NCBI GenBank assembly: GCA_949292525.1
Contig: CASEZJ010000005.1
Location: forward strand, 1 to 38,453
Origin: an uncultured bacterium
Lineage (GTDB): Bacteria; Bacillota_I; Bacilli_A; Acholeplasmatales; Anaeroplasmataceae
Direction of reading: 5' to 3'
Length of the DNA: 38,453 nucleotides
The notes below the pieces were generated by a model. That model was not told the origin of the DNA and ran no database searches. It was given only the letters and a program-made list of their open reading frames with translations. This document shows positions 1 through 21,771 of the stretch, one piece after another (position 1 is the stretch's first letter; each line of letters starts with the position of its first letter). Made by a program: the position numbers and the translations under genes.

Positions 1-1205
1 AAATTAGATGTAATATCGTTTCCTTCTGTATCAACAACTTTAACTGAGCTAACAGTTGCAATTTCAGCAATAGTTTTAACTTCAATTGTGAATGAACCTT
101 CAGGAATTTCTCTTAGATAATATGCACTACCCGATTCGCTATAATGTACTTCTTCTCCTAAACTATCTAAGATAGTTAATGATTGCATTACAAAACCTTC
201 ATCAACAACAACATCAAAGTAGAAATACTCATCTCCAGGAATTAAAACAGCCAAGTCATCATCAGTATTTTGTCCAAATACTTTATCAGTCATAGGATCA
301 TTGCTTGAAGAACCTATTCTTAAATTAGAAATTGAAGAATGAGCATCAGTTTTAATGCCAACTTGAACTTTATTACTTTCAAATAAAGCTTCAACAGTAA
401 CTTCACTTGCAGGCATTCTAAATGAATAATAATTACTTGATTCATTATAGGTTACTTCGATTTCTTCATCTGTATCGTCATTAGTAACTTTAACTCCAGT
501 TATATAATATCCTTTATATGCAACAGGTCTTAATGAAACTGAATCACCTTCTTCAGCAGCTTCTACCATATCAAAAAATTCATAAGCATCATTACTACGA
601 TAATTGATATCATATTTAACATCTGTTAAAGAAATGGTTGTATTAACATTTCCTACTGGCATTACATAGCCTTTATAAACTTTACAATATTTACTTTCAA
701 TTGAGTTATATCTTTCACCACTTAAATCAAGCCATTCAACCCTTCTAGAATCTCCTTCTCCGACTTCAACACGCAATCTATCAGGAGTTCTAGTTGCATC
801 AGTTCCTGTTCCAGTAACCCAAATATCAATTTCTTGTCCTGGAATGGCACTAGTTATATATTCAGTTGGTGACTCATATTCACTTGTAGCAACAGCATAT
901 TTAACGCTATATCCAGATGTTCCTTCAGCTTCTCCATCTACTAATTGATATGTTTTTAAGGTTGGATCTTCAATAGCATTAACTGTAATTGTTACATTAC
1001 TTTTTGGCATAGTGAATGTATAAGTAAAAGTATTTGTTTCAGTATTACTTGTTGTATAAGTTAAAACAATATCATTAGCTTTAACTTCAACTTTTTTCTT
1101 AGGTAGTTTAATTAATAATAAAATTAATCCGGCCATAAAAAGGACAAAAATTAATATTAAATAAATTAATATAGCTCTACGATCTGTAAATATACTTAAT
1201 ATCAT
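1..1205 (-). CDS. Membrane-anchored surface protein with Flg_new/InlB-like repeats (partial, C-terminus off the window)
   Basis: The frame is open from an ATG at 1205 to the window edge, about 401 codons with no stop. The start is set by a GGGGG ribosome-binding site that overlaps the stop codon of the upstream gene. Residues about 10-35 form one hydrophobic segment (IYLILIFVLFMAGLILLLI) followed by PKKK, which suggests a type II anchor with the rest outside. The outer part repeats a beta-rich unit ending in phrases such as FTMPKSNVTITVNA, YVMPVGNVNTTISL and FRMPASEVTVEALF. That is the signature of the bacterial repeat domains seen in Gram-positive surface proteins. The gene is 11 bp behind the GH3-derived membrane protein and almost certainly co-transcribed. 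An adhesive or glycan-contacting role is inference; no catalytic motif is visible in the part present. Confidence 0.75.
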   Translation of the reverse strand, partial: MILSIFTDRRAILIYLILIFVLFMAGLILLLIKLPKKKVEVKANDIVLTYTTSNTETNTFTYTFTMPKSNVTITVNAIEDPTLKTYQLVDGEAEGTSGYSVKYAVATSEYESPTEYITSAIPGQEIDIWVTGTGTDATRTPDRLRVEVGEGDSRRVEWLDLSGERYNSIESKYCKVYKGYVMPVGNVNTTISLTDVKYDINYRSNDAYEFFDMVEAAEEGDSVSLRPVAYKGYYITGVKVTNDDTDEEIEVTYNESSNYYSFRMPASEVTVEALFESNKVQVGIKTDAHSSISNLRIGSSSNDPMTDKVFGQNTDDDLAVLIPGDEYFYFDVVVDEGFVMQSLTILDSLGEEVHYSESGSAYYLREIPEGSFTIEVKTIAEIATVSSVKVVDTEGNDITSN

Positions 1206-1216
1206 AATTATCCCCC

Positions 1217-4078
1217 TTAATTTAATATTCTTAAAGTGTGTTCTAAATTGGTTTCCTTAAAGCATAAGTCTAACATTTCTTTTAATTTAGATTTAGTATT
1301 ATCATCACTAAAATATGGTAATGTCTTTAATAAAGGAATTAATTTATTAGCTAATAATAAATCTAGTGTTTCATCTTCATCGTTATTAAGTTCATGATAA
1401 ACAGCTGTATATGCTTCAATATTCAGAATTAAACTATTATTAAATACATAATTTGTTTTTTCTTTAACATAGGCAAAAAAACTATCTAGTTTATGCCATG
1501 AATTTTCAGATAAATAACTATTATTACGAGCAATTCTAACTTCAGATCTAAATGCATTGATATTTTTTGGTGTAGCTAAAACATGGTTTTCTTTAGCTAA
1601 ACCTTCTTCTAATATTGGATTTAATAGAATACCTTTTTCGATTAAATCTATGTCTAAATTATCAGTTATGATAAAATACCAAATATTTTTAGGTAATAAA
1701 ATTTGTTCATAATCTGCTAATTGTAAATAGAACTTATCATTACTTTGACTATTAGCTAATTCTACTTGAAAACTTGTAATAAAACTTTTATCAGTTGCTT
1801 CAATTACACTTACAAACATTTGTTGTTGATTATTTTTAGCTTTTAACAAGTTTTTAGCAACATCAGTCATTACATATTCATTATGTTCAATATCTAATTT
1901 TTTATATAATAGATGATTGTTTTCATCATAATTAATATAATTACGTTCAACTCCTAAAAACTCTTGCAAACAAGTTAAAAAGCGATAAACTAAAGTTGAT
2001 TTTGGTAAAATAATTAATTTTGTCATTGCTAAACTAGCTAACAAACTTCTAATCGTTAAATAATTAGTAACAATACCATTATTTTGTAAATATTCCATAA
2101 AATCAGTTACAAAGTTTGTAAAATTAACATTAGTTGTATTTTTTATTTCATCTGTCTCAATACTATAAACTGCTTCTTTAGGTTTAACTATTTCTTGTTT
2201 TTCTACTTCTTCTACTGTTGTTTCTTCTTTAGTTACTGGTTTAGTAAAAGAAACTCTAACTTCATCAACAAATTCTTTAAATTCTCTTAAATCGATAGTT
2301 TTTTCTTTAATTTTTAAATTTTTAATTAATCCAATAGTTGATAATGTAAAAAATAATATTCCCAAAACAATACATAAGATTGTTAAAACTAAAGAAATAT
2401 AGCAAAATGGTATGCGTTCATCATTACGATACATTGTACCAAATAAAAGGGCTAAACAAATAGTACTTGCTATAATTATTATAATCTTTAGGATATATGG
2501 TAAAATAAAATTATTATTTTGTTTAGTTTCAATATGACCAACAAATTCTTCTTCTTCATATTCAGATTTTTTAATTGTTTTATTTGTTAATGTACCTTCT
2601 AGTAATAGTTTAGTCCCATCACTAATTAAAACATTATAATTAGGTCCTATTAAAGGGGTTTTAATTTTTAAATAAACCATATCGCTTTGATTAGCAGAAA
2701 TATTAATATTTGATGTTAACAACATTATGGTTTTTTCATTTTCTTTTACTTGAGCATAATAAGTCATATTAGCGGCTAAATTGCCTTTGTTAGCCACAAC
2801 AAAAGCTATTTCATTATTTACTATTGTTAAACGATCATAATTAAAATTATTATAATTTAAACCTGTAAAAGTTTGATATTTAGCTAATTTTTTAACTAAA
2901 TGACCACAAGGGTTATATTTAGCTGTTATAATTTCTGATAAATATATTTTTGTGTCATGATATATTTCTGGTAAATACAAAATGGCATTAAAACCTTCAA
3001 GATATGTAAAATCAAAATCTTTATTAGTATTTAAAATAACTATAACTTTAGCTCTTGTATTTCTTAATACATCAGTGACTTTTTTTTGACCAATATTAAG
3101 TTTATCTAACGCTTCACAATCTAAGCCTAAGATAACTAGATCACAATTTGCTACTTCATCGGTAATTTTTTCAAGCGTTAGGGAATCAATATAGCCATCT
3201 TGTTCCCACGCTTTTTCAATTTTAATTAAATCATATAAATCAGATTCAAATTCATTAGCTAGATCTAGAGCTAAGTTGCCAATTAAACATATTTTTTGTC
3301 CGGTAACTAAAGGTAAAATATTATCATTTTTTAGCAAAACAATGCTATCTCTTGCAAGGCGCAATTTTAAATTTTCTTCATTATATACATTAGTAGAAAC
3401 TTGATTAGCATCTAATTCTTCTCTTACACATGTAATATCTAGTATATTTAAAACTCTATTAACTGCTAAATTAAGATTAAATAATGAAATACCATTATGT
3501 TCATTAACCCATTCATTATAATCTTCTTTAGTTATTTCTTTACGTTTTAAAGCTTGGTCTTTACCTTCTAGATCACTATATAGTTTAAAAATGGTTTCCT
3601 TTACTTCATTATCAGTAAAAACAAAAGTAACACCTTTATTTATACCTGTAATTATATTATTATAATCTAAGCTAGATAAAGCTATATAGTCATGTGCTTC
3701 AGTTATTTCATCTACAAAAGAATAAATGACATTTCTAAAATCATATTTACAATTAGAGACTAAAACAAAGTTATCCTTAGTCAATTCTTTTAATATAGAT
3801 TCATAAATTAAATCATTGTAAAAAGAATTATCACTATACATATTCTTATAATTTAAAGTATAGATAATATTAGAATTATTTTTATAGACGTTTGCATAAT
3901 TTTCTACAACCTTTAAATCACTAACATATGCTAAACTACTAGGTATCGTAAATTCTTTAAAAATAGCACTTGGTATATTTAAATCATCTATACCTTTTAG
4001 GTCTTCAGATATTAAAAAAATCAAATCTATTTTCTCTTTTAGAGTAAGTCTATTAATTATGTTTGTGTATGTCTTCAC
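1217..4078 (-). CDS. Membrane protein derived from a GH3 glycosidase, catalytic motifs lost, fused to a novel C-terminal region
   Basis: The N-terminus (RLTLKEKIDLIF) and residues 241-257 (LARDSIVLLKNDNILPL) match conserved GH3 beta-glucosidase blocks, also present in the intact GH3 gene at 6268-8697. Residues about 362-400 (LYLP ... YNPCGHL) correspond to the GH3 LPGEAGGE ... SPSGRL region. The barrel is cut to about 230 residues. The KHF motif is absent and the TDWGG nucleophile block seems replaced by VSNCKYD, so hydrolase activity is unlikely. A fibronectin-like stretch follows (about 410-500), then two transmembrane helices (about 525-548 and 558-585). A charged linker leads to a helical C-terminal domain of about 290 residues that I do not recognise. 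The start is GTG with AAGGAG upstream. It forms an operon with the repeat protein downstream. Scaffold or sugar sensing are possible roles; both are inference. Confidence 0.75.
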   Translation of the reverse strand: MKTYTNIINRLTLKEKIDLIFLISEDLKGIDDLNIPSAIFKEFTIPSSLAYVSDLKVVENYANVYKNNSNIIYTLNYKNMYSDNSFYNDLIYESILKELTKDNFVLVSNCKYDFRNVIYSFVDEITEAHDYIALSSLDYNNIITGINKGVTFVFTDNEVKETIFKLYSDLEGKDQALKRKEITKEDYNEWVNEHNGISLFNLNLAVNRVLNILDITCVREELDANQVSTNVYNEENLKLRLARDSIVLLKNDNILPLVTGQKICLIGNLALDLANEFESDLYDLIKIEKAWEQDGYIDSLTLEKITDEVANCDLVILGLDCEALDKLNIGQKKVTDVLRNTRAKVIVILNTNKDFDFTYLEGFNAILYLPEIYHDTKIYLSEIITAKYNPCGHLVKKLAKYQTFTGLNYNNFNYDRLTIVNNEIAFVVANKGNLAANMTYYAQVKENEKTIMLLTSNINISANQSDMVYLKIKTPLIGPNYNVLISDGTKLLLEGTLTNKTIKKSEYEEEEFVGHIETKQNNNFILPYILKIIIIIASTICLALLFGTMYRNDERIPFCYISLVLTILCIVLGILFFTLSTIGLIKNLKIKEKTIDLREFKEFVDEVRVSFTKPVTKEETTVEEVEKQEIVKPKEAVYSIETDEIKNTTNVNFTNFVTDFMEYLQNNGIVTNYLTIRSLLASLAMTKLIILPKSTLVYRFLTCLQEFLGVERNYINYDENNHLLYKKLDIEHNEYVMTDVAKNLLKAKNNQQQMFVSVIEATDKSFITSFQVELANSQSNDKFYLQLADYEQILLPKNIWYFIITDNLDIDLIEKGILLNPILEEGLAKENHVLATPKNINAFRSEVRIARNNSYLSENSWHKLDSFFAYVKEKTNYVFNNSLILNIEAYTAVYHELNNDEDETLDLLLANKLIPLLKTLPYFSDDNTKSKLKEMLDLCFKETNLEHTLRILN

Positions 4079-4285: not shown

Positions 4286-4361
4286 GGCCCGTTGGTGAAA
4301 CGGTTAACACACATGCCTTTCACGCATGCACTTGTGGGTTCGAACCCCGCACGGGTCACCA
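4286..4361 (+). tRNA. tRNA-Glu (anticodon TTC)
   Basis: The 76-nt cloverleaf has acceptor arms GGCCCGT / ACGGGTC with one G-T wobble, a T-loop GTTCGAA, and an anticodon stem CATGC/GCATG around the loop CTTTCAC (anticodon TTC at 4319-4321). The terminal CCA is encoded. The gene has its own promoter and stands alone. No copy of its 3' end is seen elsewhere in the window, so it is not flagged as an attachment site. Confidence 0.95.
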
Positions 4362-5231: not shown

Positions 5232-5260
5232 ATTATACGATACGCTAAATGTTTTAGCAA
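5232..5260 (-). promoter_or_regulatory. Promoter of the small membrane protein
   Basis: Minus-strand TTGCTA (5255-5260) and TATAAT (5232-5237) are separated by 17 bp. This fixes the translation start downstream at 5191. Confidence 0.55.
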
Positions 5261-5341
5261 CACTTTGTTTATTGAATTTGGCTTTTTAAAAATCGCACAA
5301 CAAAAAGGAAATATTATTGTTTAGTAACTTAAAAATGGGTT

Positions 5342-6266
5342 TTATATACTATACCAAATCTTTAAATGATTATATTTAGCTTTATTTAATATTTGAGTTA
5401 TACCATCTTGATATGTACCTAAGACATAATTACAGTAATATGGTAAAGCTAAATATTTTAATTGTGATGTTAAAGTATATAATAAGAAATAACCTAAAAG
5501 CAATAACATATATTTATCGGTGAAAATGACCTTTAATTGTAAAATAAAGGGAACTTTTTTTCTTCGATACCATTACTTTCAGCTGTAACTCTTTCTTTAG
5601 TATAATAATATTCAAGTAAGACAAGTGGTAAAGATATACAAGATAAAATTGACATAACTATTATCCACATTCGTTTACTTGCACCTAAAGTAGGCATTAT
5701 AGCCATCGGAAAAATTAAAGTTACAAAAATACCAGTCATCATGATTGTAGATACATTATTAAATACTGCTAGTACTCCTCTTTGAGCAGTATTTCTAGTT
5801 GATAAAGATACCATTAAATTATGACTCATATTATAAATTGTGAAAGCTAATGAATAATATAAATTATATGAAATCATTACCCATATTATTTGTAACACTT
5901 CATTATTACTAGGAACAACAAATAATAAAATACACTAACACAAAGAAATGGTGCCGATAATAATAACCATGGTCTAGCTTTACCTTATTTAGTATGAGTT
6001 CTATCGATTATAGCTCCCATAATGACATTAGTAATTGCATCTAAAATTTTTGATAAGATTGGGAAATAACTAAAATCATTCCTTTCCATAATTCCACCAA
6101 GTTTTAAAACATCAGTATAATAGACATTTATTTAAGTAGCCATGACTGCATTAAATAATAAAACACCACATGGTCCAAGTAAATAGCCGATCCATTTTTC
6201 TTTATTAGTTACATTTTGTGATTTTAATTTTTAATTAAATATCGGCTTATTTAAAACATTTTCCAT
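5342..6266 (-). pseudogene. GPH-family sugar:cation symporter, inactivated
   Basis: Conceptual translation in pieces gives a clear GPH (melibiose permease-like) transporter: [57 protein letters not shown], then YMLLLLGYFLLYTL and YYCNYVLGTYQDGITQ. It is broken by three in-frame TAA codons (after KPIFN, NAVMAT and DRTHTK), by a 1-nt frameshift near 5925 and by another near 5545. It stops after about half of the usual 12 helices, so the C-terminal half is deleted. The ATG at 6266 follows the GH3 stop codon by one base with GAGGAG upstream, so it was the second gene of a GH3-permease operon. It would have imported the glycoside cleaved by that enzyme. Confidence 0.85.
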
Positions 6267-6267
6267 G

Positions 6268-8697
6268 TTATTGCTCCTCAATATTAGGCAATTCTGGTGC
6301 CATTATTTTGGTAAGTATTTTCTTAATTCCTTTTAACAAATGACCATTTGCAAGATCTACAAAACCACAGGCAAAATTGTAAGGAAATGTATTACCAGCA
6401 CACATTGACATTGATATTATTGAATTACTTTCTAAGACTCTTCTTAAAAATATAGCTCCTTTAATTTTATTATCTCTAATTGGTCCTTCTGGTAATTTTA
6501 GAGCTTTTCTATATTGTTTATTTGCTACACTTAAAACAGCTTTATATAAAATATTACCAATAAAAGTTTCTTTTAAATAGGTGAATCTACTGTCTATATT
6601 TAAAGGCTTTTTCGTTACTTTAGGTGGTATATTTAGCTTAAAATGACTACCATATTTTAAATCATCTATTTTTTCTAATTTGGCATTTTGATAATAATCA
6701 TTAATTTCATCTAATTCTGTTTTTTCTTCTTTACCAACAATAATAGAATCTTCTAAAATTACACTTTGAGAATTTTTACATATGCTAAATATATATTTAC
6801 CTTCATCTAATATATATTTATTTTCTTCTATATTAAAATATTTTAACTCATTTAAATTAATAATAAATTCTGCAGTCTTAATTTCTGAAGGTTCTAAATA
6901 TAATTTACTAAATCCTTTTAATTCTCTTTTAGCTTTAAAAATTTTATTTATAGGACTACTTACATATAACTCTACTACTTCAGCACCCTTAATTTCTCCT
7001 ATATTTTTTATATCTACATTAATGATTATCTTGTCATTTTCTTTTTTTATTTTTAAATTATCATATTTAAATTTTGTATAACTTAAACCATAACCAAAAG
7101 GAAATAATACTTCTTTATTTTTATTTAAATAATATCGATATCCTACTAAGATACTTTCTTTATAAATTGATCTTTCTTCTTTTCCAAATTCATCATGATA
7201 AGCAACATCTTCATATTTGATAGGCCATGTTTCACTAAGTCTTCCCGAAGGTGATACTTTACCAAATAATAGTTTATAAACTGCTTCACCACCAGCTTCA
7301 CCTGGTAAATACATATTGATTATTCCTTTTACTTTATCTACAAATGGTAATTCAATTGGTGAACCTCCAAATAAAACCACAATTATATTTTTATTTAATT
7401 TAATAAGCTCATTTACTAATTCTAATTGATTTGTTGGCAACTGCATATTAACTCTATCTTGGCCTTCACTTTCAATTAAATCTGTTAAGCCTAGAAATAA
7501 TATTATATCTTCATAATCATTAGCTTTTTTAATTGCTTCAGCAATTAAATTTAAGTTTGTTTCTGCATTTACTTCTTTATAACCACATACAAATTCATAA
7601 TTAATACTATGATCATTAAAGGCCGTTTCTGCATCTTTTAACATAACTGGATTTATCATTGAACTACCAGCACCTTGATAACGCATATGATTAAATAAAT
7701 CACCAATTATTAAATATTTCTTGTTTTCTTTAAGTGGTAATATATTATCATTTTTTAATAACACAGCACTATCACAAGCTATATCTAAAGCTATTTGGTA
7801 ATGTTTATTAAAATCAACTATATTTTCCTTAACATTTTCATGTTTATAAACTAAATTTAAAACATTTAAAACGGCTTTATCTAATACATCTTCAGCTAAT
7901 GTTTTATTTTTAATCGCATCATATATTTGTTTTTTACATATTGCAGTATCACCAGGCATTTCTAAATCTAAGCCAGCTTCTATCATTTTATCTCGATTAT
8001 GACTTCCTCCCCAATCAGTCATAACTAAACCATTAAATCCCCATTCTTTTCTTAATATGTCACTTAATAACCACTTATTTTCTGAGGCATAAATACCATT
8101 AATTTTGTTATATGATGACATAACAGTTTCAGCATAACCATCTTTAATAACCATTTCAAATGGTTTTAAATAGATTTCGCGCATAGCTCGCATATCACAA
8201 ATACTATCACCCATAAAACGATAGTTTTCACTATTGTTTAAAGCAAAATGCTTAACCGCCACCGCAACACCATTTTCTTCAATCCCTCTAACAACATCTT
8301 TGGCCATTACACCTGTTAAATATGGATCTTCTGAAAAATATTCGAAATTTCTTCCTGCTAAAGGATTACGTTTAATATTTACACCTGGTCCTAAAACAAC
8401 ACTAACACCGTAATGCTTAGCTTCCTTAGCTAAACATACCCCCATCTTATAAGCATTATCTTTATTCCAACTAGAAGCTAATGTGGCCGCTGTCGGAAAA
8501 GCTGTAGCTTTTTCTGATTCACTGATTCCGTTATCTCTTTTATCGGTTTGAACTCTTAAACCATGAGGTCCATCAGCCATCTTAATGCTTTTTATATTTA
8601 ATCTTTTAATAGCATTCGTGTTCATAAAATTTGTGCCTGAAACTAAGGCTATCTTTTCTTCTAATGTTAATTTTTTTAATATTTCTAACGTATTCAC
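6268..8697 (-). CDS. GH3 family beta-glucosidase (intracellular)
   Basis: This 809-residue protein has the full GH3 layout. The N-terminal barrel carries the substrate motif KHF (149-151) and the nucleophile block VMTDWGG with Asp228. The C-terminal alpha/beta sandwich carries the likely acid/base region ESEGQDR (about 412), LPGEAGGEA and SPSGRLSETWP, then a fibronectin-like domain, and about 110 extra residues typical of cytosolic Bacillota enzymes. There is no signal peptide, so it acts on imported beta-glucosides; exact sugar specificity cannot be read. The start is GTG with AGGAGG at 9 bp. It is transcribed divergently from an AraC pseudogene, and its partner permease just downstream is dead, so its substrate supply is doubtful. 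Compare the degenerate paralogue at 1217-4078. Confidence 0.93.
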   Translation of the reverse strand: MNTLEILKKLTLEEKIALVSGTNFMNTNAIKRLNIKSIKMADGPHGLRVQTDKRDNGISESEKATAFPTAATLASSWNKDNAYKMGVCLAKEAKHYGVSVVLGPGVNIKRNPLAGRNFEYFSEDPYLTGVMAKDVVRGIEENGVAVAVKHFALNNSENYRFMGDSICDMRAMREIYLKPFEMVIKDGYAETVMSSYNKINGIYASENKWLLSDILRKEWGFNGLVMTDWGGSHNRDKMIEAGLDLEMPGDTAICKKQIYDAIKNKTLAEDVLDKAVLNVLNLVYKHENVKENIVDFNKHYQIALDIACDSAVLLKNDNILPLKENKKYLIIGDLFNHMRYQGAGSSMINPVMLKDAETAFNDHSINYEFVCGYKEVNAETNLNLIAEAIKKANDYEDIILFLGLTDLIESEGQDRVNMQLPTNQLELVNELIKLNKNIIVVLFGGSPIELPFVDKVKGIINMYLPGEAGGEAVYKLLFGKVSPSGRLSETWPIKYEDVAYHDEFGKEERSIYKESILVGYRYYLNKNKEVLFPFGYGLSYTKFKYDNLKIKKENDKIIINVDIKNIGEIKGAEVVELYVSSPINKIFKAKRELKGFSKLYLEPSEIKTAEFIINLNELKYFNIEENKYILDEGKYIFSICKNSQSVILEDSIIVGKEEKTELDEINDYYQNAKLEKIDDLKYGSHFKLNIPPKVTKKPLNIDSRFTYLKETFIGNILYKAVLSVANKQYRKALKLPEGPIRDNKIKGAIFLRRVLESNSIISMSMCAGNTFPYNFACGFVDLANGHLLKGIKKILTKIMAPELPNIEEQ

Positions 8698-9652: not shown

Positions 9653-10159
9653 CTATTCTACAACGCCATATGAATCCAGTAAATCAGCAAGTGCATTTGC
9701 TATGTCTTCTAATGTCTGACATTTTTTAAATCTTTCATCAATTATTTCTAATCCACCTCTTACGTATGAATCAAAGTTTTGTTCATCTTCTTTACTATGT
9801 TCTAACTCAAAGGCTTTTTTAACTTTTTGATCGATGTTTAACCAATCATATCTAGTAAAAACCATATGTTTAAAAATTCTTTCAAGATTATTTTTACCTT
9901 TGATAACTTTCTCAGCGAAGATGTTTGCCGGAGTAGTTTGTGTTCTATCTATTTCAGCTTTTCTATCATTTATTATGCCTAACATTGCAGATACCATATA
10001 GCATTCAAACATATCACTAAAAATGTATGTATAATCAGTGTCATCGTTATACGAATTTCCAACTCTAAAATAATTAGTTTCAGAGGCTTGTTTATCCGGA
10101 GAATATTTTTTTATAATGTTGGCATGTTTACCATATATTCTAATTTGATCATTAAACAT
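9653..10159 (-). CDS. Small phosphorothioation-associated protein, last gene of the ssp operon
   Basis: A 168-residue soluble protein whose start overlaps the stop of the DndD-like ATPase by one base (TAATG), so the two are translationally coupled. The centre (YIFSDMFECYMVSAMLGIINDRKAEI) resembles the small dnd-system-associated proteins found beside DndD homologues, in which a similar phrase precedes a basic turn. That resemblance is from memory and weak. The C-terminal half is helical and acidic. By position it should be one component of the restriction module, probably binding the ATPase. No nuclease motif is visible. Only a weak hairpin (GAATA/TATTC, about 9644-9659) follows it. Confidence 0.6.
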   Translation of the reverse strand: MFNDQIRIYGKHANIIKKYSPDKQASETNYFRVGNSYNDDTDYTYIFSDMFECYMVSAMLGIINDRKAEIDRTQTTPANIFAEKVIKGKNNLERIFKHMVFTRYDWLNIDQKVKKAFELEHSKEDEQNFDSYVRGGLEIIDERFKKCQTLEDIANALADLLDSYGVVE

Positions 10160-12144
10160 TAGATTTCTACCTCCACTATTTTAGTATAACTTTCACTTAT
10201 TTTTTCAAATCTATATGCTTTACCTATTAATCCATTAACACTTGATATTGCAGTTTTAAAATCCTTTTCCATAACAGCTATAATCACTTGATTGCAATAT
10301 CTAGTTAATGCTTTACATATATTTGCTATATGAGTTTCATCTAGTGATGAGAATGGTGCATCCATTACTAATGGATATATATTATCAATATCGTCACTTT
10401 CTATTCCATCAGTTACTTCTTGTTTTTTATCTCTTATTAATTTAATTAAACCTATAACAAATGCATAATTCACCACTGTACTAAGTCCTGTTGATTGGTC
10501 TAATTCTTTTCCACTACTTAATTTAGTATCAACATTATAATTTTCATCAATTGAAATTGTACGATTTCCATGATACATATCCTTAAATATATCATTAACC
10601 AATTTGTTTAAATCGGTTTTTGTTTTGCTATACTCATCATTTATGTGTTTCTCAACAAGATGATAAATGGTATCAGCATATTTAATGCAAAGATCGTATA
10701 AATCATTTTCCTGATTATCAGCTGCTATTTTTGATAATTGACTTTCATCTCGCTGCAATTCAGATTGATAATTCTTAATTTTAATAACATTTGCCTCTAT
10801 AATTGACTCTTTTTCTTTAATTTGTCCATCTATTCGATCAACTTTAGTCTGATATATTGCAACATTAGGCTTATCTTTGATTTGTTTCTTAATATCCTTA
10901 ATTTCTTCTTTTGTATAATTAATATTTTCTATTAACTCAATAAAATCATTAATTGATTCGAGAACATCTGATAATAAAGTGGGAGCCATACTTCTTTCTT
11001 CATATTTTAAAAAATCTTCTACATATTTATCATAGTTATGTGGCGCCATGTGCTGTTTTGCATCTATCAAATGCTTATAAGCGTCATTACTATCTTCAAT
11101 TTTAGCACCACATAAGCAATATCCTCTGTCAATTAATTGATCAATTGCGGCTTCTTCAATGTTGGATAATGAATCATTATTGTTAAATGTAGAGCTTTTA
11201 AGTTCTTCAACTAATTTATTATTTCTAAAATTATAATAAAATAATACTTTTAATAATGCGTTATTAGAATTCACACTTCTTTGTATTTGAGAAAAGCGAG
11301 TACTTCCGTTAGCTATATTACTTTTTAATTTCATTTGTTTGTCTGTTAATTTAATTTGAAGTTCACTTGTTTCTTTATTTTCTTCAATTATCTTTTTATA
11401 TTCATTTTGCTGGTCTTTTAAGTTGCTAATTTCATTTTTAATTTTAGTATTTTCTCTAGTTAACTCATCAATTCTGTTTTGAACATCACTAATATTGGAT
11501 TTTAACAACTCTTCTTTGACCAAATTTGTTGTTGTTTTTTTGTTTTTAAATCTTGATGCAACACCATCACTTTTAAAATATGATTTAAGTGCTTCAATTT
11601 TGCCTATTCCTAACATCTTCGAGATTGCTTCTTTTAAATTTTTCTTAGTACTAGCGCTTTCAATAGTATTGTTTTCACCTTCAAAGAAAAAATAATTTTT
11701 CAATTCTTCACTTAAAATATCATTTATCTTTTCTTTTACTAGTTTAGAATTAGTAGTGGGAATTGATCCTTTTTCATTGTTATATTCTAATATTGTAGTA
11801 GTGGCCCTTGTATCAACACGAACTGTTCCTAATTGATCCCTATAATAAGTTTCTCTAGTAGTAATTGTATATTTAGTATTATCGTGCACCAACTCTACTA
11901 TAATTTTAGCTTCCTTTTTGTCCCCATATTCTAATTCTTCTAAAACATCATTATTTAATAAAATTTTAGTTCCGAATGTATTTTCTTGATATAAACACCA
12001 TAGAAATGCTTTAACTAAAGTGGTTTTTCCTGTAGTATTATCACCCAAAAGAACTGTTAATTTTTTATTTTCATCCATTGAAAATAAAATCTCTCCATAT
12101 TTAAATTGTCTGAAATTAATCATTTTTATGCTCTTTAATATCAT
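10159..12144 (-). CDS. DndD-like SMC/RecN-type ATPase of the phosphorothioation island
   Basis: A 661-residue ABC-type ATPase. It has an N-terminal Walker A (GDNTTGKTT, 34-42) directly after a DndD-like opening (KSIKMINFRQFKYG). Long coiled coils (about 200-290 and 395-480) flank a hinge holding a Cys-x-Cys (343-345) that recalls the Rad50/DndD zinc hook. A signature-like stretch (STGLSTVVNYAF, about 551-562) precedes Walker B (LVMDAPFSSLD, 592-602). DndD proteins hydrolyse ATP on DNA; in Ssp islands such ATPases belong to the accessory restriction module (SspFGH type). The start at 12144 has GGAGG 11 bp upstream inside the 56-residue gene. Exact one-to-one naming with SspF, G or H is not claimed. 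Confidence 0.8.
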   Translation of the reverse strand: MILKSIKMINFRQFKYGEILFSMDENKKLTVLLGDNTTGKTTLVKAFLWCLYQENTFGTKILLNNDVLEELEYGDKKEAKIIVELVHDNTKYTITTRETYYRDQLGTVRVDTRATTTILEYNNEKGSIPTTNSKLVKEKINDILSEELKNYFFFEGENNTIESASTKKNLKEAISKMLGIGKIEALKSYFKSDGVASRFKNKKTTTNLVKEELLKSNISDVQNRIDELTRENTKIKNEISNLKDQQNEYKKIIEENKETSELQIKLTDKQMKLKSNIANGSTRFSQIQRSVNSNNALLKVLFYYNFRNNKLVEELKSSTFNNNDSLSNIEEAAIDQLIDRGYCLCGAKIEDSNDAYKHLIDAKQHMAPHNYDKYVEDFLKYEERSMAPTLLSDVLESINDFIELIENINYTKEEIKDIKKQIKDKPNVAIYQTKVDRIDGQIKEKESIIEANVIKIKNYQSELQRDESQLSKIAADNQENDLYDLCIKYADTIYHLVEKHINDEYSKTKTDLNKLVNDIFKDMYHGNRTISIDENYNVDTKLSSGKELDQSTGLSTVVNYAFVIGLIKLIRDKKQEVTDGIESDDIDNIYPLVMDAPFSSLDETHIANICKALTRYCNQVIIAVMEKDFKTAISSVNGLIGKAYRFEKISESYTKIVEVEI

Positions 12145-12286
12145 TTCTGATCAAGTCCTCCATCTTATTAACTAATTCACCAATAGCTTGACTTCTTGTT
12201 AGCTCATTTGCGTTTTGTTTTCTTACTAGTTTATACCCTTCTTGAATTATTTTTCTAATAACTTCTTTATTTATTTCCTTATTCAT
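12116..12286 (-). CDS. 56-residue charged protein embedded between helicase and ATPase genes
   Basis: ATG at 12286 opens a 56-codon frame ending in TAA at 12116-12118. It overlaps the helicase gene by 8 bp and the ATPase gene by 29 bp, a tight coupling typical of a real operon member. The protein (MNKEINKEVIRKIIQEGYKL ... ELVNKMEDLIRND) is predicted to be two amphipathic helices rich in Lys and Glu. Its coding sequence carries the GGAGG that serves the ATPase start. No family is recognised. It may be an assembly factor or simply a coupling peptide. It would be missed by a 60-residue length cut-off. Confidence 0.6.
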   Translation of the reverse strand: MNKEINKEVIRKIIQEGYKLVRKQNANELTRSQAIGELVNKMEDLIRNDIKEHKND

Positions 12287-14438
12287 TTTCATCATACTCC
12301 ATTTTAATTTTGTTTAATTCAAAAGCATCTTCAATTTTGTTTATAATCTCATTAGATTCAGAAGAATTTATAGCTGAATTTGAAAAATCAATAAGTCTTT
12401 CGAACTCACGCTTAATAAGCCCATATACATGTTTTTTTTCGTGATAGGAAATTTCTATTGCTTTATCTAAACTATATGGTAAAGTTATGAAATCATATAT
12501 TTCAGCATACTGTTTTCCTTCAAATTTACGTAAAACTCTTCCCCTTCTTTGAATATATTCCTTAGGGTTTGTACTACTTGCTAAAATAAAAGCAGTTTTG
12601 ATTGACGGAACGTTTAATCCTTCATCTAAACATTTAATAGCAACTAATGCTTGAATATCACCATTTGAAAAAGCATCTATAATACTTAATCTCTCATCCG
12701 TGTTTTCCTCAGAAGTAAATTCTGTTGCCTTAAAATCATACTTTTCATTTAAATCCGCAACTATTCGTTTAATTTGCTTTAATTCATCGTTTGATGAACT
12801 ATCTATATTTTCTTTACCATATTTAATAGCGCCACAATATATTAAGATATTTTTAGAGTTTTTATATTTTAAAATTAATTCATACAATTTATTTATTTTA
12901 TTTTCTGTTTTAGCTATTAGTCGAGATCTTTTAATCAATAACATCTTATATGTCTGATTATCTTCAAAATCAGCATATGAAGCATATTTAGATATTCGTC
13001 TTGTAAGATTTATATATTCTTCTAATTCATTTTCAGAAAAAGTGACTAGTATTGGATAATAATAATATTTTGTTAAAAAACCATCAATAATTGCTTGTTC
13101 TAACGTATATACAATACATTTTTCTCCAAAAAAATTTAAAATTTTACTGTTACCGATAGAATCACCTTTTCTTTCTATCGTAGCCGACAATGCTAATCTA
13201 TATTTACATTTATATTCTAACATTTTACTTATACTAGTTGCTCCAAAATTATGTGCTTCATCAGCAATTAAAAGAATTTCATTTAGGTTATCAAGATAAA
13301 TACTTTTTAAATGTTCAGTCGTAAATGTAGCATTTGTCGTCACTATACATAGAAAGTCCTTGCGTTTCCTCTTAAAATTACCAATTTCTCTTTTCAGTTT
13401 TTCAGAATATTTATTATAAGAACCATAGCATTTAAGTGCATCAATATTAAAGTTTTGTAACTCTTTATACCATTGCTCAACTAAATGAGAAAATGGGCAA
13501 CAAACTATTACTAATAATCGTTTTTTATCTTGATATAATTTAGTTATTGCACCTGCTGCAGTATATGTTTTACCAGTTCCTGTAGCCATATCAAATATTC
13601 CTATATAATTATGTTCTTTCCAATTATCTATTGCGTTAATTTGATATTCTCTTAAAATTTCATTTATCTTCAGGTTAGGAATCTTAATTCTTTTCTCACG
13701 TTCTTTTTTTTGAATGTATTTCTCGACAAATATTTCATCTAATTTAAATGTTTTATCAGTAACTTTGTAATTTAATATTTTATTCTTTATAACATCTGGA
13801 AATGGGATAGAAATAACACCTATTTCAGAATCATTCCATATTGCATCAAATCTATCTTTTTTTAAATTACATCTTGTTAAGTTGTCCTCGTTTCGCCAGG
13901 AGCAATAGACATCAAGATTCTCATAATTTAAATTAAATGCGTTATACGTTTCATTAGCTGAGCCAGAAAAACAAATCATATTATCATATTCATCTAGCAT
14001 TATTCCTGTTTTTTCATGATATAAAGCATGATCATTATTTTCTTTTAGTGCTACAACTTTAATTTCTAAAATATTTTTAGATATCATATATGCTAGTAAG
14101 CCATACCTATCTTCTCTATCTTTATAATCAACAAATTCATCGAAGGAATTTACAATTTTATCAGTTACAATTTCCCTAAGAGAATATCCTTTTTTAATAG
14201 CTTCATAATCTTTTTCATCTAGTTGAGGCGAAATCAAAAGTTTCATAACGCCACCATTTTTAGAAAAATTTGCTAATCCTTCAGTTAATTGTAGTAATAT
14301 TGATGAGGAAAAATAGGCTACAGCGCGATAATATTTTTTAGCTATAGATAAACAAGGTATATAAAAGTTATTGACTACATCATCATATAAAGTTCTATAT
14401 TCAACATAAATTTTTGAGTTAATATCTTTAAATCCCAT
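12279..14438 (-). CDS. PLD-nuclease-like domain fused to SF2 DEAH helicase, ssp restriction module
   Basis: A 719-residue protein. Residues about 1-215 form a phospholipase D-like domain with HEK (141-143) and GSANET (159-164), matching one HxK...GS-N half-motif; PLD-type nucleases usually act as dimers of such halves. A SF2 helicase follows: Q-region REYQ, Walker A ATGTGKT (285-291), DEAH (393-396), SATIE, and a C-terminal RecA fold with GLNVPS and the QRRGRVLR arginine-finger motif. PLD-helicase fusions recur in defence islands. It lies 2 bp after the sspA stop with AAGGGG as ribosome-binding site, so it is co-expressed with the modification genes. It is the best candidate for the DNA-damaging effector, with strand specificity unknown. 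Confidence 0.85.
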   Translation of the reverse strand: MGFKDINSKIYVEYRTLYDDVVNNFYIPCLSIAKKYYRAVAYFSSSILLQLTEGLANFSKNGGVMKLLISPQLDEKDYEAIKKGYSLREIVTDKIVNSFDEFVDYKDREDRYGLLAYMISKNILEIKVVALKENNDHALYHEKTGIMLDEYDNMICFSGSANETYNAFNLNYENLDVYCSWRNEDNLTRCNLKKDRFDAIWNDSEIGVISIPFPDVIKNKILNYKVTDKTFKLDEIFVEKYIQKKEREKRIKIPNLKINEILREYQINAIDNWKEHNYIGIFDMATGTGKTYTAAGAITKLYQDKKRLLVIVCCPFSHLVEQWYKELQNFNIDALKCYGSYNKYSEKLKREIGNFKRKRKDFLCIVTTNATFTTEHLKSIYLDNLNEILLIADEAHNFGATSISKMLEYKCKYRLALSATIERKGDSIGNSKILNFFGEKCIVYTLEQAIIDGFLTKYYYYPILVTFSENELEEYINLTRRISKYASYADFEDNQTYKMLLIKRSRLIAKTENKINKLYELILKYKNSKNILIYCGAIKYGKENIDSSSNDELKQIKRIVADLNEKYDFKATEFTSEENTDERLSIIDAFSNGDIQALVAIKCLDEGLNVPSIKTAFILASSTNPKEYIQRRGRVLRKFEGKQYAEIYDFITLPYSLDKAIEISYHEKKHVYGLIKREFERLIDFSNSAINSSESNEIINKIEDAFELNKIKMEYDENE

Positions 14439-14440
14439 CT

Positions 14441-15550
14441 TTACATCCCCTTTAATGCCTCAATTAGCACATCTATTTCGGCTTCAGTATTGAACATTCC
14501 AAAACTCACCCTAACAGTTCCATTATGTTCATCTAAATTTAGAAATTCATTTATTAATGGGGCACAATGATAGCCAGTTCTTACACATATATCATAGTCA
14601 TCTGCTAATATTTCACCAATATCAGAAGCCTTATAATTTTTCAAATTAAATGAAACTATGCCACATGAAATATAATTGTCTGGTAAATATATTTTAACCC
14701 CATCAATATGTTTAATTCTTTCTAATAAATATCGAGTTAACGCCTTTTTTTTGCCTTCTATATCTATATTCTCTATAATATCTAAAGATTTATTTAGCGT
14801 ATATATTGCTATAGAATTACTAGTGCCTGCTTCATAACGACTTGGGCCTTCATTTGGCATATCTAAATTAAGAGAATCGCTACCAGTTCCACCTACTTTT
14901 ACTGTTTTTAATACTATATTTGCTAAATTGAAATATCCTGCACATCCAAATGTAGCATATAAAGTCTTGTGACCTGCAAATACTACAAAATCTATATTGC
15001 TAGTATTGATTTTACATTCTCCTAAACTTTGGGCAGCATCTAAAATATTAATTGTATTAATGTTTTTACCTAAAGAAAATATTTTTTCATAAGGTAACAT
15101 ATAACCTGTTACATTGCTTATATGTGAGATGATGATTGCTTTAGGTTGTTTTATCACGAGTTCATCATAAAATTTATTTTCATCTAATAAAAAAGTTTTA
15201 TTATCAAAAGGAATTAGATTAATTTTAGCCTTAATATTATGCAATGTTCTAATTACTGCATTATGCTCAAATGGTGAAACAAAAACTACATCACCTTCAT
15301 TAACTAGACCATAAATAATATTATTTAATGCTTCTGTAGCTGATGATGTAAACACAACATTATCAGGTTTAGTATTTATTAAGCTAGTTAACTTTCTTCT
15401 TGTATTTTCAATCATTTTAAAAGTATCATTGGCCTCTTTATAACTACCTCGACCAGCGTTAAAAGCATAATTTTTAGCCGCAAATTCTAATGCTTCATAG
15501 ACTTCTTTTGGCTTAGGGAATGTTGTAGCAGCGTTATCAAAATAAATCAT
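14441..15550 (-). CDS. sspA: Cysteine desulfurase SspA/DndA-type
   Basis: A 369-residue class V aminotransferase fold, the size of NifS/IscS-type desulfurases. The PLP-binding lysine is in FAGHK (Lys195). The sulfur-accepting cysteine is Cys329 in VRTGYHCAP, a short tight loop as in group II-like and Ssp/Dnd desulfurases. N-terminal FDNAATTFPKP and SSATEALN are standard PLP-fold motifs. It takes sulfur from L-cysteine and would pass it to the SspD PP-loop protein for insertion into the DNA backbone. The start is chosen from AGGAGG 4 bp before ATG. It overlaps the sspC stop as ATGA. A role in general Fe-S assembly is possible, but its place inside the island makes dedicated phosphorothioation far more likely. 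Confidence 0.85.
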   Translation of the reverse strand: MIYFDNAATTFPKPKEVYEALEFAAKNYAFNAGRGSYKEANDTFKMIENTRRKLTSLINTKPDNVVFTSSATEALNNIIYGLVNEGDVVFVSPFEHNAVIRTLHNIKAKINLIPFDNKTFLLDENKFYDELVIKQPKAIIISHISNVTGYMLPYEKIFSLGKNINTINILDAAQSLGECKINTSNIDFVVFAGHKTLYATFGCAGYFNLANIVLKTVKVGGTGSDSLNLDMPNEGPSRYEAGTSNSIAIYTLNKSLDIIENIDIEGKKKALTRYLLERIKHIDGVKIYLPDNYISCGIVSFNLKNYKASDIGEILADDYDICVRTGYHCAPLINEFLNLDEHNGTVRVSFGMFNTEAEIDVLIEALKGM

Positions 15551-18500
15551 ACTACCTCCTTAATAAGTGCATTAAGAATTTTAATTTTCTCTTCTTTATT
15601 TATAGAATCACCATACTCATTTAAAACATCCTCTAGACTACTTAACAACGTTTCAGCAAGCGGACTTAACGAAACATTACTTTCTATAACATCATTGTTA
15701 TTATTATAATTTTCTAAATATTTAACAAATTCTATTAATGTTTCTTTATACAATTCATCTTTTTGAACATTAAAATTAGTTAGATTAGATTTTGTTATAA
15801 CTATAGCTAATTGCTTTATGACAATATTATCATCATGATTTGCTTTATTTAACGTTTCATATATTTGATTATATTTGTTAGGCAATACTATGTTGTTCAA
15901 GTTATTCATACTTAGCAAATTAATAAACCCATTTTTAATATCGTCAGTAGTCTTAAATGTTTTCTTTGTAAAATCAATTAAATTATTATAATAATTATCA
16001 GCTTTTCTAGTCATACTTTGTCTAATATCTAATATTATTTTAGGCAAGTTATTAATATTATTTTTAAATAAAGCCGGCAATTCTTCAAATAACACTGTAA
16101 AGCTATTTAAATCATTATTTCTAATCAATTCTTTATATTTAAGCTCTATATCTGATAGCTCTATAAGATTATCTCTTTTAGTTGTTTGTGAAATTATTTG
16201 ATCAAAACTATAAAAATCATTTCGTAAATATTCAATTAAATTCTTAACCATTTCCGCTAGATTATCACTCTTTTTAATTTCTAAATATGTACATAGCGAT
16301 CCTATAGCATTGTATGAATCCCTCGTATATTCTAAAAAAGAAAATTCGTACTTATCATCAGTTAATGCTAAATCAATATTAGCTGTGTTTACCGGAATTT
16401 CTAAATTCTTGTTAAATAGAACAACAGCTCTATCACTAGTATTAATATTAGCAATCACTTTAGCTATAAATAACGGCATAATGCCTCTTCTCATACCATA
16501 AGGTTTGTTTTTTAGATAATTATATATATCATGTACTTTAATTCTATTATTTACTTGATTATTAAAAATATATGCAGTTATCTCAGTAATTATATTTGCA
16601 TTTATTTCTAATGATTTTTCAAGGCTTTTAAATATTGTCATTTCTGGTGATGTATCACTATAATTATTATTATTAATACCAAGTATAATATCTCCTACGC
16701 TATTTCTAGATCGTTTTGATGTTGAAGAAATATTATTTTTATTAACTTGTTCATTAACAAAAATCACTGTTTTATCATATGTTTCACTAAATGAACTATA
16801 TATATTATCACTTAATGGCCCATCAACTTTTGTGTTACTTATCAATATAGGTTTAGAATATATACATTCTAGATATTTGTTAATATCGCTAGTTAAATCC
16901 ATATAATATAGTTTTAAAGTTTCTTTTTCGACTTCATTTAGATGTTTATCTTCTAATAAACAATTAATAGATAAAGCTCTTCTTCCTTTTTCAATAATAT
17001 TATCAGCAATTTCTTTATTTATTAATCTTATAATCAAATTTGAACAATTAAAATTACTCAACTTAGCTGATATATCATCTGAAGTATATTTATTATCGTT
17101 AATTAAATTTATTAATACACCATCACCATTATTATAATTTTCTAATGATGAAATATCTTTTAATTCCATAAATTTTGAAGCTCTAAAATAGATCATCGTA
17201 AAATATCTAATCATTTCAAATTCATAATTATATCTATTAGAAATAAAATATTTATGTGTATCTACATTAAATAATAATTCTTCTAACTTTGTACTTAGAA
17301 ATTTATTATTAGCAATTTGTTCTATTTTTGTATTTAGATTTTCATCAATAATCATTGAAAAATCAATGTTATTAGTTATAGAATCTTGTTTAAAATAATT
17401 ATTAGTAATTAAAATTGCTACAATTTTACTAACCACAACCTCATCTAAATTAAGAGCTAATGAAATATTTTTAATGCTTGCGGGAAATTTATTTTCATCA
17501 TTAATAATTTTAAAAATTGCTAATGCTTTAATTATTTTTTTATATTCTTCTTCCTTAACAACATTATTTATAGCTTCTACTTTTTGACCTAAAGCTTTAT
17601 AATTCTCATCATTTTTAATTATATCGGCAAAATAGTCATAAATATAATCAACATTTAATAGGCCTTTACTATTATGATTAACAAAATGTTTAAAAGTTTT
17701 TTCACTAGTATCAGTTAAAAATGTAAATAATGTACGTTCATTTTGACCTAAAAGTTCGGAAATATTTACTAATGCATAAACACTTAAAGGATTAAAAGGA
17801 AATGCATTTTCAAGAATATCAGTAATATTTTTTTCACTTAAAACACTAGTTTCTAATAATTTTTCCTTAAAATCAGTATTTACCTTTATAAATTTACCAA
17901 CTAAATCTACATATCCATCTTTTTTATTCAACGCATCACATAAAATTTCATAATTTTCTTCTAGACTACGATTAAACTTAATTGTTTTAAATCTTCCCGC
18001 TATTTTAGCAAAAGAATTTATACTTTCTTTCTTCTTACTATATAAAACAAAATCTTTGTGGGTAATACAACATAAATGCATTTGTTCTAATTGACTAGAA
18101 CTATTACATTTTTCAGCTAAATTTTGTAATTTATTTAACTTAGTATTAAAATCAACATCTTGATTTTCTAAAAATAGGCCAAATTCATCATATATTATGA
18201 ACAAACCTGAATATCCATATTTCTTTATTTTGTTAGCTACATCAGCATATAATGCAGCTATATCATTTGAAATATATGACATAAAAGATGCACCATGTGA
18301 AACATCTTTAAAAATCTTTCTAAATGTTTGTAATGCATTTGCTTTATATTCTTTTAACTCTTTTTCTAAGTTCTGAATAGTTGTATTATATTCTTTAAAA
18401 TATAAATCTAAATTAAAATCACTTTTAGAATTTTCTTTTTTCCATTTTTTGATAATATTGACTGCTTCATCAAATGTAGAATCTGGCATCAACTTATCTA

Positions 18501-18933
18501 ATTTAGCATCCTTTAAAGAGTTAAATAACGAAATCATAAATGAATTATTAAAATCATCAGTAGAATTATTATTAATAATTATTGGCAACAATGATAAGTT
18601 TTCTGAATCTATCTTTATTAGCATATTTGCCAAATAAGAATTTATTTTTTTTATCTTATCTACCACTATATTAAATAATGCTTTATTTTCTCTTTTGCCA
18701 AGTAAATAAGTTATCATCAGCATTAGATATGATTTACCTTTACCATAGGGACCTACAAGTAATGTTGAACGTAGATTTTTATTGTTTAAAGCTGATGAAA
18801 TATAATATTCTAACACGTCACATAAATCGGATGTAGGAATATATTCTTTAATTTTTTCTTCATTCTTTAAATCATATTCCAAATTAACAGAGGATTTAAA
18901 TTTTTTGTTTACATCAATATATCTACTATACAT
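15547..18933 (-). CDS. sspC: Large P-loop ATPase SspC-like
   Basis: A 1128-residue protein from the ATG at 18933, which has AGGAGG 6 bp upstream overlapping the sspB stop. An upstream ATG at 18960 is in frame but has no comparable site. Numbering from the upstream ATG, Walker A is GPYGKGKS (70-77) and Walker B-like IIYDEFG is at about 255-261, the arrangement of STAND/ORC-type AAA ATPases. The remaining 800 residues are helical and of unknown fold. In studied Ssp systems SspC supplies the ATPase needed for sulfur insertion together with SspB and SspD. The assignment rests on gene order between DUF4007 and the desulfurase as well as on the P-loop. It is long for an ATPase of this role. Confidence 0.75.
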   Translation of the reverse strand: MYSRYIDVNKKFKSSVNLEYDLKNEEKIKEYIPTSDLCDVLEYYISSALNNKNLRSTLLVGPYGKGKSYLMLMITYLLGKRENKALFNIVVDKIKKINSYLANMLIKIDSENLSLLPIIINNNSTDDFNNSFMISLFNSLKDAKLDKLMPDSTFDEAVNIIKKWKKENSKSDFNLDLYFKEYNTTIQNLEKELKEYKANALQTFRKIFKDVSHGASFMSYISNDIAALYADVANKIKKYGYSGLFIIYDEFGLFLENQDVDFNTKLNKLQNLAEKCNSSSQLEQMHLCCITHKDFVLYSKKKESINSFAKIAGRFKTIKFNRSLEENYEILCDALNKKDGYVDLVGKFIKVNTDFKEKLLETSVLSEKNITDILENAFPFNPLSVYALVNISELLGQNERTLFTFLTDTSEKTFKHFVNHNSKGLLNVDYIYDYFADIIKNDENYKALGQKVEAINNVVKEEEYKKIIKALAIFKIINDENKFPASIKNISLALNLDEVVVSKIVAILITNNYFKQDSITNNIDFSMIIDENLNTKIEQIANNKFLSTKLEELLFNVDTHKYFISNRYNYEFEMIRYFTMIYFRASKFMELKDISSLENYNNGDGVLINLINDNKYTSDDISAKLSNFNCSNLIIRLINKEIADNIIEKGRRALSINCLLEDKHLNEVEKETLKLYYMDLTSDINKYLECIYSKPILISNTKVDGPLSDNIYSSFSETYDKTVIFVNEQVNKNNISSTSKRSRNSVGDIILGINNNNYSDTSPEMTIFKSLEKSLEINANIITEITAYIFNNQVNNRIKVHDIYNYLKNKPYGMRRGIMPLFIAKVIANINTSDRAVVLFNKNLEIPVNTANIDLALTDDKYEFSFLEYTRDSYNAIGSLCTYLEIKKSDNLAEMVKNLIEYLRNDFYSFDQIISQTTKRDNLIELSDIELKYKELIRNNDLNSFTVLFEELPALFKNNINNLPKIILDIRQSMTRKADNYYNNLIDFTKKTFKTTDDIKNGFINLLSMNNLNNIVLPNKYNQIYETLNKANHDDNIVIKQLAIVITKSNLTNFNVQKDELYKETLIEFVKYLENYNNNNDVIESNVSLSPLAETLLSSLEDVLNEYGDSINKEEKIKILNALIKEVV

Positions 18934-18943
18934 ATAAACCCTC

Positions 18944-19810
18944 CTAGTCATATACTTCATTAACGTTAATTGGTTTAACTAAAATTAGAGTGTTTAACCC
19001 AGCTGTCCTTACTAAATTTATCATTTTTTTATTTCTTAATTCATCTAAATATGAAAATATACTAGAACGTGTTAAATTAAAAATTAGTATTGGACTATAT
19101 TTAGAATTTAAAAAATCATCTAGATTAAACTCTTTTTGATAATTTTCTTGTAAATTATTTTCTTTTGCTAAAGCTTCTGAATAGCGTGATAAAACAAACA
19201 AAATTACATTACTATTTAAAGAATCATATAACGGATGTTCTTTTACAAATTGTTTATTTTTTTCATTCATTAAACCAAGTCTTGAAAGTGGTGAATTCAT
19301 ATTATTTTCCGGATCATCTATATAAGTTTTTACATATGTTTTAAATAAAACTAAAACATCGTTTTCAATTGATGATTTATTTATATTTTCATAACTTGAA
19401 ATATAATAATCATATAAATAATTAGTATAACTATCTTTTTGAAAAGCTTGTTGTGATGAATGAAAAGTTTGATAAAAAACAGGGTTTTCAATTTCATTCA
19501 TAACTAAATTATAATGAATTAACCACCATGATATATGGTTTTCTAAATATCTATCTTTTTCAAGTAACACCTTACCAAAATCAGTTAAACTTGCTCCTTT
19601 TTGATTACTAAATGTGCAAATTTGCGAAACATTAATCCAAAATTTTAAGGCTTTTACCATATTTGAACCAATACCAAATATAATAGTACCTTCATTATTT
19701 AAAAAACATCTATTATTATCATTAACTTTATTTATTGCTTTTTCTAACCAACCTTCTCTTATAGAAAATGTTTCATTTCTTTTAAATTTAGGAGCATTTT
19801 TATTATTCAT
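18944..19810 (-). CDS. sspB: DUF4007 protein SspB-like (candidate nickase of phosphorothioation)
   Basis: A 288-residue protein of DUF4007 type. The opening FKRNETFSIREGWLEKA, FGIGSNMVKALKFWI and LTDFGKVLLEKDRYLE are the family's hallmark blocks, here in residues about 9-95. The N-terminal part reads like a winged-helix DNA-binding fold. Known Ssp systems use the DUF4007 protein SspB to nick DNA before sulfur is placed on one strand. No textbook nuclease motif can be pointed out here, so the nickase role is taken from family knowledge. It lies 4 bp downstream of sspD and its stop overlaps the sspC ribosome-binding site. Confidence 0.78.
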   Translation of the reverse strand: MNNKNAPKFKRNETFSIREGWLEKAINKVNDNNRCFLNNEGTIIFGIGSNMVKALKFWINVSQICTFSNQKGASLTDFGKVLLEKDRYLENHISWWLIHYNLVMNEIENPVFYQTFHSSQQAFQKDSYTNYLYDYYISSYENINKSSIENDVLVLFKTYVKTYIDDPENNMNSPLSRLGLMNEKNKQFVKEHPLYDSLNSNVILFVLSRYSEALAKENNLQENYQKEFNLDDFLNSKYSPILIFNLTRSSIFSYLDELRNKKMINLVRTAGLNTLILVKPINVNEVYD

Positions 19811-19814
19811 AAGA

Positions 19815-21551: not shown

Positions 21552-21608
21552 TATTAAAAGCCTTAAATTTTATTATTAGTGAAAACATAATTTTTGCCCC
21601 TTCGTCAT

Positions 21609-21660
21609 AGGCCACAAGATTGACTAGGAATAGTACGCCTAATACAATAATAGGTGGCCT
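21609..21660 (-). other. Leader hairpin in the ssp 5' untranslated region
   Basis: In the minus-strand transcript AGGCCAC (21654-21660) pairs with GTGGCCT (21609-21615). An inner stem ATTAGG/CCTAGT with one G-T wobble forms inside the loop. The structure overlaps the left recombination site, so inversion would also change the leader. There is no U-run, so it is not a terminator. Confidence 0.4.
21635..21657 (-). repeat. Left 23-bp recombination-like site (inverted copy)
   Basis: Read on the minus strand it is CCACCT-ATTATTGTATT-AGGCGT. It matches the right site at 21772-21794 in the first 15 bases and in 19 of 23 overall. Arms in inverted orientation around an 11-bp centre are the usual design of tyrosine-recombinase crossover sites. 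Confidence 0.75.
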
Positions 21661-21682
21661 TGTTTAATTTAATACATCAATT

Positions 21683-21711: not shown

Positions 21712-21771
21712 ATGCAAATACTTAAAAAAACAGATAAATTATTTTTTAAGTCAAAAAGTGAGCTAAATTAA

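Follow-up and report, generated by a model that had tools for sequence, protein, structure and literature searches.

Introduction

McrB-type rings are restriction motors. One kind of McrB-like system, CoCoPALM, was named in an eLife survey of 2024 (PMC11090510): its McrB-like GTPases carry an NxD motif and an FtsB-like membrane/coiled-coil part and have signal peptidase partners. Within the limited collection of literature that we searched, no paper is dedicated to CoCoPALM and none deals with GH3 pseudoenzymes of the kind presented here.

We have analysed a gene that combines ancestry from both protein groups. It lies in the window, the whole stretch of 38,453 nucleotides under study, which is contig C5 (CASEZJ010000005.1, assembly GCA_949292525.1) of an uncultured bacterium of the Anaeroplasmataceae. 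Profile comparisons and motif alignments show its product to be a predicted double pseudoenzyme, in which two inactive units, one from GH3 and one a McrB-like AAA+ domain, are joined by a two-helix membrane hairpin.

The gene and its GH3-derived half

The open reading frame at 1217-4078 of the reverse strand runs for 953 codons without interruption, from a GTG start with AAGGAG ahead of it. Full-length homologues are found in two congeners, a sister species (G002, 88% identity) and G005 (37%), and further ones in more distant genomes; a related-loci search returned one relative only. Comparison of the window species with the sister gives a dN/dS of 0.19 over the whole gene; the value is about 0.2 in the two GH3 domains and 0.11 in the final 300 residues, which form the pseudo-McrB part. 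As the ratio is low in both halves, the frame is a maintained gene, and purifying selection acts on both dead halves. Above cut-off, Pfam calls only GH3_C on the 953-residue protein, with no call for GH3_N. AlphaFold, run on a four-row alignment, gave a model too poor for a fold search (pLDDT 35.6, pTM 0.27). A tRNA is located at 4286-4358 (+).

The first 230 residues (3389-4078, -) correspond to a shrunken remnant of the GH3 TIM barrel, which has kept the N-terminal LTLKEKI block and is missing DGP, KHF and TDWGG. They are followed by the GH3 C-terminal sandwich domain (residues 246-403; 2870-3343, -; Pfam PF01915, E 8.1e-8), with LLKNDNILPL kept and the acid/base loop deleted, and by an Fn3-like third GH3 domain (residues ~411-510; 2549-2848, -) marked by a GLNYNNFNY block and a profile match to 7ms2 through position 591. 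Pfam calls the Fn3-like domain in the homologues of G054, G019, G052, G059 and G038. When compared with GH3 structures, a family profile of the N-terminal half (8 sequences) matched 7ms2, a thermostable beta-glucosidase, over its full length at 2e-64. A profile restricted to the first 230 residues (A4) also matches a GH3 structure (2x40, 7e-14), and the shrunken barrel is therefore considered a true GH3 remnant. The similarity to GH3, which the earlier note on this sequence had allowed might disappear in profile comparisons, thus stays.

Ten fusion homologues were aligned jointly with seven GH3 enzymes of related genomes. The Asp of the DGP loop, the KH pair, the S/T-D-W/Y nucleophile and the acid/base loop are missing in all ten fusions: the catalytic Asp of the barrel is present in 0/10, and the sandwich loop of the acid/base Glu is shortened in 10/10. 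LLKN, the P of PSG and most of the GLxY block are still present. By eye, an FTDN in the window protein resembles the nucleophile motif, but its Asp is not conserved, since the sister has FTNN and G005 has FISN. Judged by this alignment, the GH3 half is a pseudoenzyme from which the catalytic landmarks have all been lost. The absence of KHF and TDWGG, already remarked in the earlier note, is confirmed and extends to the DGP Asp and the acid/base loop, and the profiles, the lost landmarks and the two helices described below bear out its reading of a GH3-derived pseudoenzyme that is also a membrane protein.

Descent from an enzyme like the one encoded 2 kb away had also been proposed. In a tree whose reading is limited by several long branches, a 100/100 branch separates the pseudo-GH3s from the active GH3s, among them this neighbour (6268-8697, -), and the neighbour was consequently rejected as the source. 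The neighbouring active gene shows a dS of 0.006 to its counterpart in the sister, compared with 0.02-0.32 in the other genes examined, which suggests recent transfer or recombination. Beside it lies an MFS/GPH sugar transporter pseudogene (5250-6275, -); several of its in-frame stops are common with the sister, so that its decay is older than the species split or was shared by transfer.

The membrane hairpin and the C-terminal half

The two membrane helices noticed previously are found at residues 529-547 (2438-2494, -; hydropathy 2.62) and 561-579 (2342-2398, -; hydropathy 2.88), with a 13-residue loop between them. Two helices separated by 7-15 residues occur in all copies compared, namely 12 fusions and 5 others; these fusions include that of G426, whose GH3 part is strongly decayed, and exclude one that is split between contigs (G017). 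No N-terminal signal peptide was visible by eye in any of these copies. Lys and Arg are usually richer outside the hairpin than in the loop (in the window protein, 5 in the 20 residues after helix 2 versus 2 in the loop), the exception being the N-flank of the window and sister proteins, with one each. A tight hairpin places both ends of the protein on one side of the membrane, and positive charges outside it place them inside (N-in/C-in); hydropathy and charge counting thus predict that the GH3 half and the pseudo-McrB half are both cytoplasmic.

The C-terminal ~290-300 residues have no Pfam assignment, as had been stated. They are not the new domain that they had been taken for: residues 650-953 (1220-2131, -) are recognizable in profile comparisons as a degenerate McrB-like AAA+ domain. 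A family profile of the degenerate set (A1) aligned with the active paralogues in hhalign over 323 columns (P 99.9, E 8.7e-34). By itself A1 reached E. coli McrB (6hz4) at 0.0018. The active paralogues match Pfam AAA_5, and their profile (A2) matched the GTPase domain of E. coli McrB at 2.3e-6. Some members of the family are stand-alone proteins, and GMSGTGKTS, LDEMN and TANNDD occur in relatives of these. All 19 active copies retain Walker A, Walker B and NxD; the three motifs have been lost from each of the 18 readable pseudo copies, and one further copy (G021a) is unaligned over the first two. Conservation in the pseudo copies is lowest in the nucleotide-binding core, where that of the active copies is highest, and a lid signature, W-K-K-x-D, is private to the pseudo copies.

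Operon organization and distribution

In loci that offer enough sequence, the pseudo-McrB gene, with or without the pseudo-GH3 part, is followed in order by genes for ATPase 1, a DUF2357-type protein, ATPase 2 and one or more surface proteins. This order is conserved in eleven loci (L035, L036, L042, L046, L047, L050, L090, L094, L112, L115 and L116). Both ATPases are membrane McrB-like proteins with intact motifs; ATPase 1 has as a rule one transmembrane helix and ATPase 2 has two. The DUF2357 candidate of the window-type operon receives no Pfam call and aligns in hhalign at 2e-35 with proteins that Pfam assigns to DUF2357 (4e-12), a McrC-N-like type. It has a long charged helical tail, a putative coiled coil, and an SMC-like match; when the DUF2357 profile was compared with structures, McrC was not matched and coiled-coil noise only was returned. 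The surface proteins are large and membrane-anchored, with transglutaminase core, YDG, MBG or adhesin-like matches. On the evidence of gene content and order, the pseudo-McrB gene is the conserved first gene of this operon across several families of gut-type bacteria, and the operon itself is a putative, undescribed membrane machine of McrBC-like parts.

A search for homologues with the same fusion, which the earlier note had advised, was carried out. The GH3 fusion is present in twelve genomes (G000, G002, G005, G010, G017, G019, G038, G052, G054, G059, G216 and G415) and the fusions span four families; a further decayed one occurs in G426 (profile E 2e-17 without filters). The G017 fusion is split over two contig ends and was joined by inference from a shared EPTEEKVEE repeat. 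Unfused pseudo-McrB copies occur in G009, G011, G022, G036, G086, G089, G150, G199, G208 and others, and the GH3 half is therefore dispensable in some species. In the ATPase tree, on which a single origin of the fusion was examined, the branches concerned are long.

In 8/12 operons, from several families, a single stretch of 929-1173 bases is identical between the ATPase 1 and ATPase 2 genes (L035, L036, L042, L046, L090, L094, L112 and L115), and in one further operon 1055 bases are identical between them, in exact blocks. The sequences differ between genomes, and the membrane anchors of ATPase 1 and ATPase 2 are different. This pattern suggests recurrent gene conversion between the two ATPase genes.

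Other arrangements of such ATPases were seen in related genomes. In a congener, a membrane McrB-like ATPase is found among several GFTLVELLVVIAILAIL prepilin-like proteins (L099, G001:C7:18000-34000), a context that would fit a pilus-linked role for this ATPase type. Two McrB-like ATPases of ~900 residues are fused to at least 8 membrane helices (L091, 5749-8460; L092, 1868-4537), each with a short DUF2357-like gene adjoining.

The left end of the window and other features

As the ATPase genes share identical DNA, many contigs, the window among them, stop within ATPase 1; in assemblies from short reads, such near-identical pairs can lead to breaks or false joins, as seems to have happened here. 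Positions 1065-1205 (-) hold the opening 47 codons of the gene that truly follows, that of the membrane-anchored McrB-like ATPase 1 (one transmembrane helix): the same 47 residues open an ORF in the sister, where it runs on into the ATPase. In the window these codons are joined in frame to a divergent coding sequence of InlB repeats at the contig end (1-1064, -; Pfam Flg_new_2). This piece has a GC content of 31% versus 23%, and among 160 genomes of the order none but the window's own contains a match to it. The ATPase 1 tail, the DUF2357-type gene and ATPase 2 are located on contig C56 (3239 bases) of the same genome. A repeat protein as a true operon member is thus rejected by the sister sequence, GC content, contig C56 and the lack of relatives. 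The simplest and most likely reading of these comparisons is a chimeric join at the contig end, with a real rearrangement as a possible alternative. The membrane-anchored repeat protein that had been named as operon partner gives way to a membrane McrB-like ATPase, the repeat being probably a misassembly. Because the operon is split over C5 and C56, its intactness in the window's own genome is judged from relatives.

The other contig end carries a group II intron domain (Rfam RF00029, 45.5 bits; 38358-38429, -). The window also includes a defence island of the phosphorothioation type at 9653-26000 (-), with genes for a PbeC/DndD-like protein (10159-12144, -), PbeA (12279-14438, -), a class V aminotransferase (14441-15550, -), an SspC-like protein (15547-18960, -), a DUF4007 protein (18944-19810, -) and a helicase (23371-25926, -).

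Possible functions

The joining of two dead enzymes in the product of a conserved first operon gene makes a scaffold or regulator more probable than a sugar receptor. We tentatively favour, with a confidence that falls somewhat short of even, a catalytically dead membrane scaffold or regulator of a McrB-type ring acting on the co-encoded surface proteins. The membrane-embedded protein would exert this role at the inner membrane face. Its pseudo-McrB half would take a place in, or dock on, the ring of ATPases 1 and 2, mainly via the lid half; the McrC-N-like (DUF2357) protein would switch the ring on, and the cytoplasmic pseudo-GH3 half could be a docking or sensing module. Driven by NTP, the ring might in turn act across the membrane on the surface proteins with YDG, MBG or transglutaminase domains, for instance by exporting, assembling or crosslinking them. 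These ideas of scaffold, sensing, ring and surface output are drawn from the conservation of the operon and the known architecture of McrBC. The existence of unfused pseudo-McrB copies and the split of the operon over two contigs in the window's own genome weigh against this reading. A more specific version, in which the two gene-converted membrane NTPases and the dead McrB would assemble into a hetero-ring for building or crosslinking surface proteins, with the dead GH3 as a cytoplasmic ligand sensor, we consider doubtful.

Pseudo-glycosidases can turn into glycan binders, and the GH3-derived half, kept in twelve fusions of four families, could accordingly be a cytoplasmic sugar-binding sensor that gates the ATPase ring. 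This general precedent has to be set against the alignment, in which the landmarks of subsite -1 are all gone, the remaining invariant residues look structural and a conserved pocket was not identified, and we regard such a sensor as unlikely. Still less probable is the related proposal made from the first reading, in which the protein is a sugar receptor outside the cell that has a new C-terminal domain and a repeat adhesin as its partner. The two membrane helices and the GH3 ancestry are real, but the hairpin topology, the lack of a visible signal peptide, the degenerate-McrB C-terminus and the probably chimeric nature of the repeat partner make it highly improbable. Of the "sugar-binding receptor or scaffold" of the earlier note, then, the outside receptor fares badly, with its sugar contacts also gone, and the scaffold is possible and preferred.

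A role in defence was also considered. The operon could protect against phages in the manner of Type IV restriction, the pseudo-GH3/pseudo-McrB protein being its membrane sensor; this possibility is raised by PADLOC, which lists a similar candidate, PDC-M26A, matched by the active paralogues at ~1e-43. McrB and DUF2357 form the core of McrBC and CoCoNuT systems (PMC11090510), and the gene is ~5.6 kb from Pbe/Ssp/Dnd-like phosphorothioation defence genes in the window. However, the operon proteins yielded no nuclease domain, and the partners that are conserved are surface proteins instead of effectors. The island adjoins the operon in the window species and its sister; the view of the other operon neighbourhoods, where PADLOC covered the ATPases only, is partly inference. 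Taken together, we think defence decidedly unlikely as the function. That the gene is decaying, or an assembly product without function, is scarcely credible: both active sites are lost, a real transporter pseudogene is near and an assembly artefact adjoins, but dN/dS is low, full-length copies have an open frame and the same place in the operon is held across families.

An orphan GH3-like pseudoenzyme is now tied to a concrete operon, and two unassigned halves become testable parts. In this setting the McrB-type components are membrane-bound and accompanied by surface proteins, and selection maintains one subunit that is dead.

Comparison with known systems

The N-terminal half shares with GH3 enzymes (7ms2, 2x40) the three-domain order of barrel (here a remnant), sandwich and Fn3-like domain. 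It differs in a barrel of ~230 residues instead of ~300, in the loss of the DGP Asp, KH, the TDW nucleophile and the EGxDR acid/base loop, and in being joined to membrane helices and a pseudo-McrB. The C-terminal half is related to the AAA+ domain of McrB (E. coli McrB, 6hz4, 6ut6) via the active paralogues, and a DUF2357 protein accompanies it in the operon. In contrast to McrB, this half has no Walker A, Walker B or NxD and has a membrane hairpin, and neither the DNA-binding ADAM domain nor the nuclease of McrBC is seen here.

With CoCoNuT the operon shares an NxD McrB-like NTPase and a McrC homologue with a coiled coil, putative in our case, whereas the HEPN, PD-(D/E)xK nuclease and RNA-binding domains of CoCoNuT were not found; Pfam scans of the operon proteins revealed no nuclease. 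The likeness to CoCoPALM is closer. ATPases 1 and 2, for which the window-species sequence was taken from contig C56, have the NxD followed by a second D (TANNDD) and are membrane-anchored with 1 or 2 transmembrane helices, and the DUF2357 protein carries the putative coiled coil. Single-ATPase loci linked to SipW in related genomes fit the CoCoPALM description (L048, L049, L053 and L117). Unlike these, the present operon encodes two near-identical membrane NTPases and one dead one, YDG/MBG/transglutaminase surface proteins and the pseudo-GH3 fusion, and SipW had no match in the triple-ATPase operons examined. Owing to this absence we file the triple-ATPase operon not as CoCoPALM but as CoCoPALM-like; by its motifs and predicted membrane parts, CoCoPALM is the described kind to which it stands nearest.
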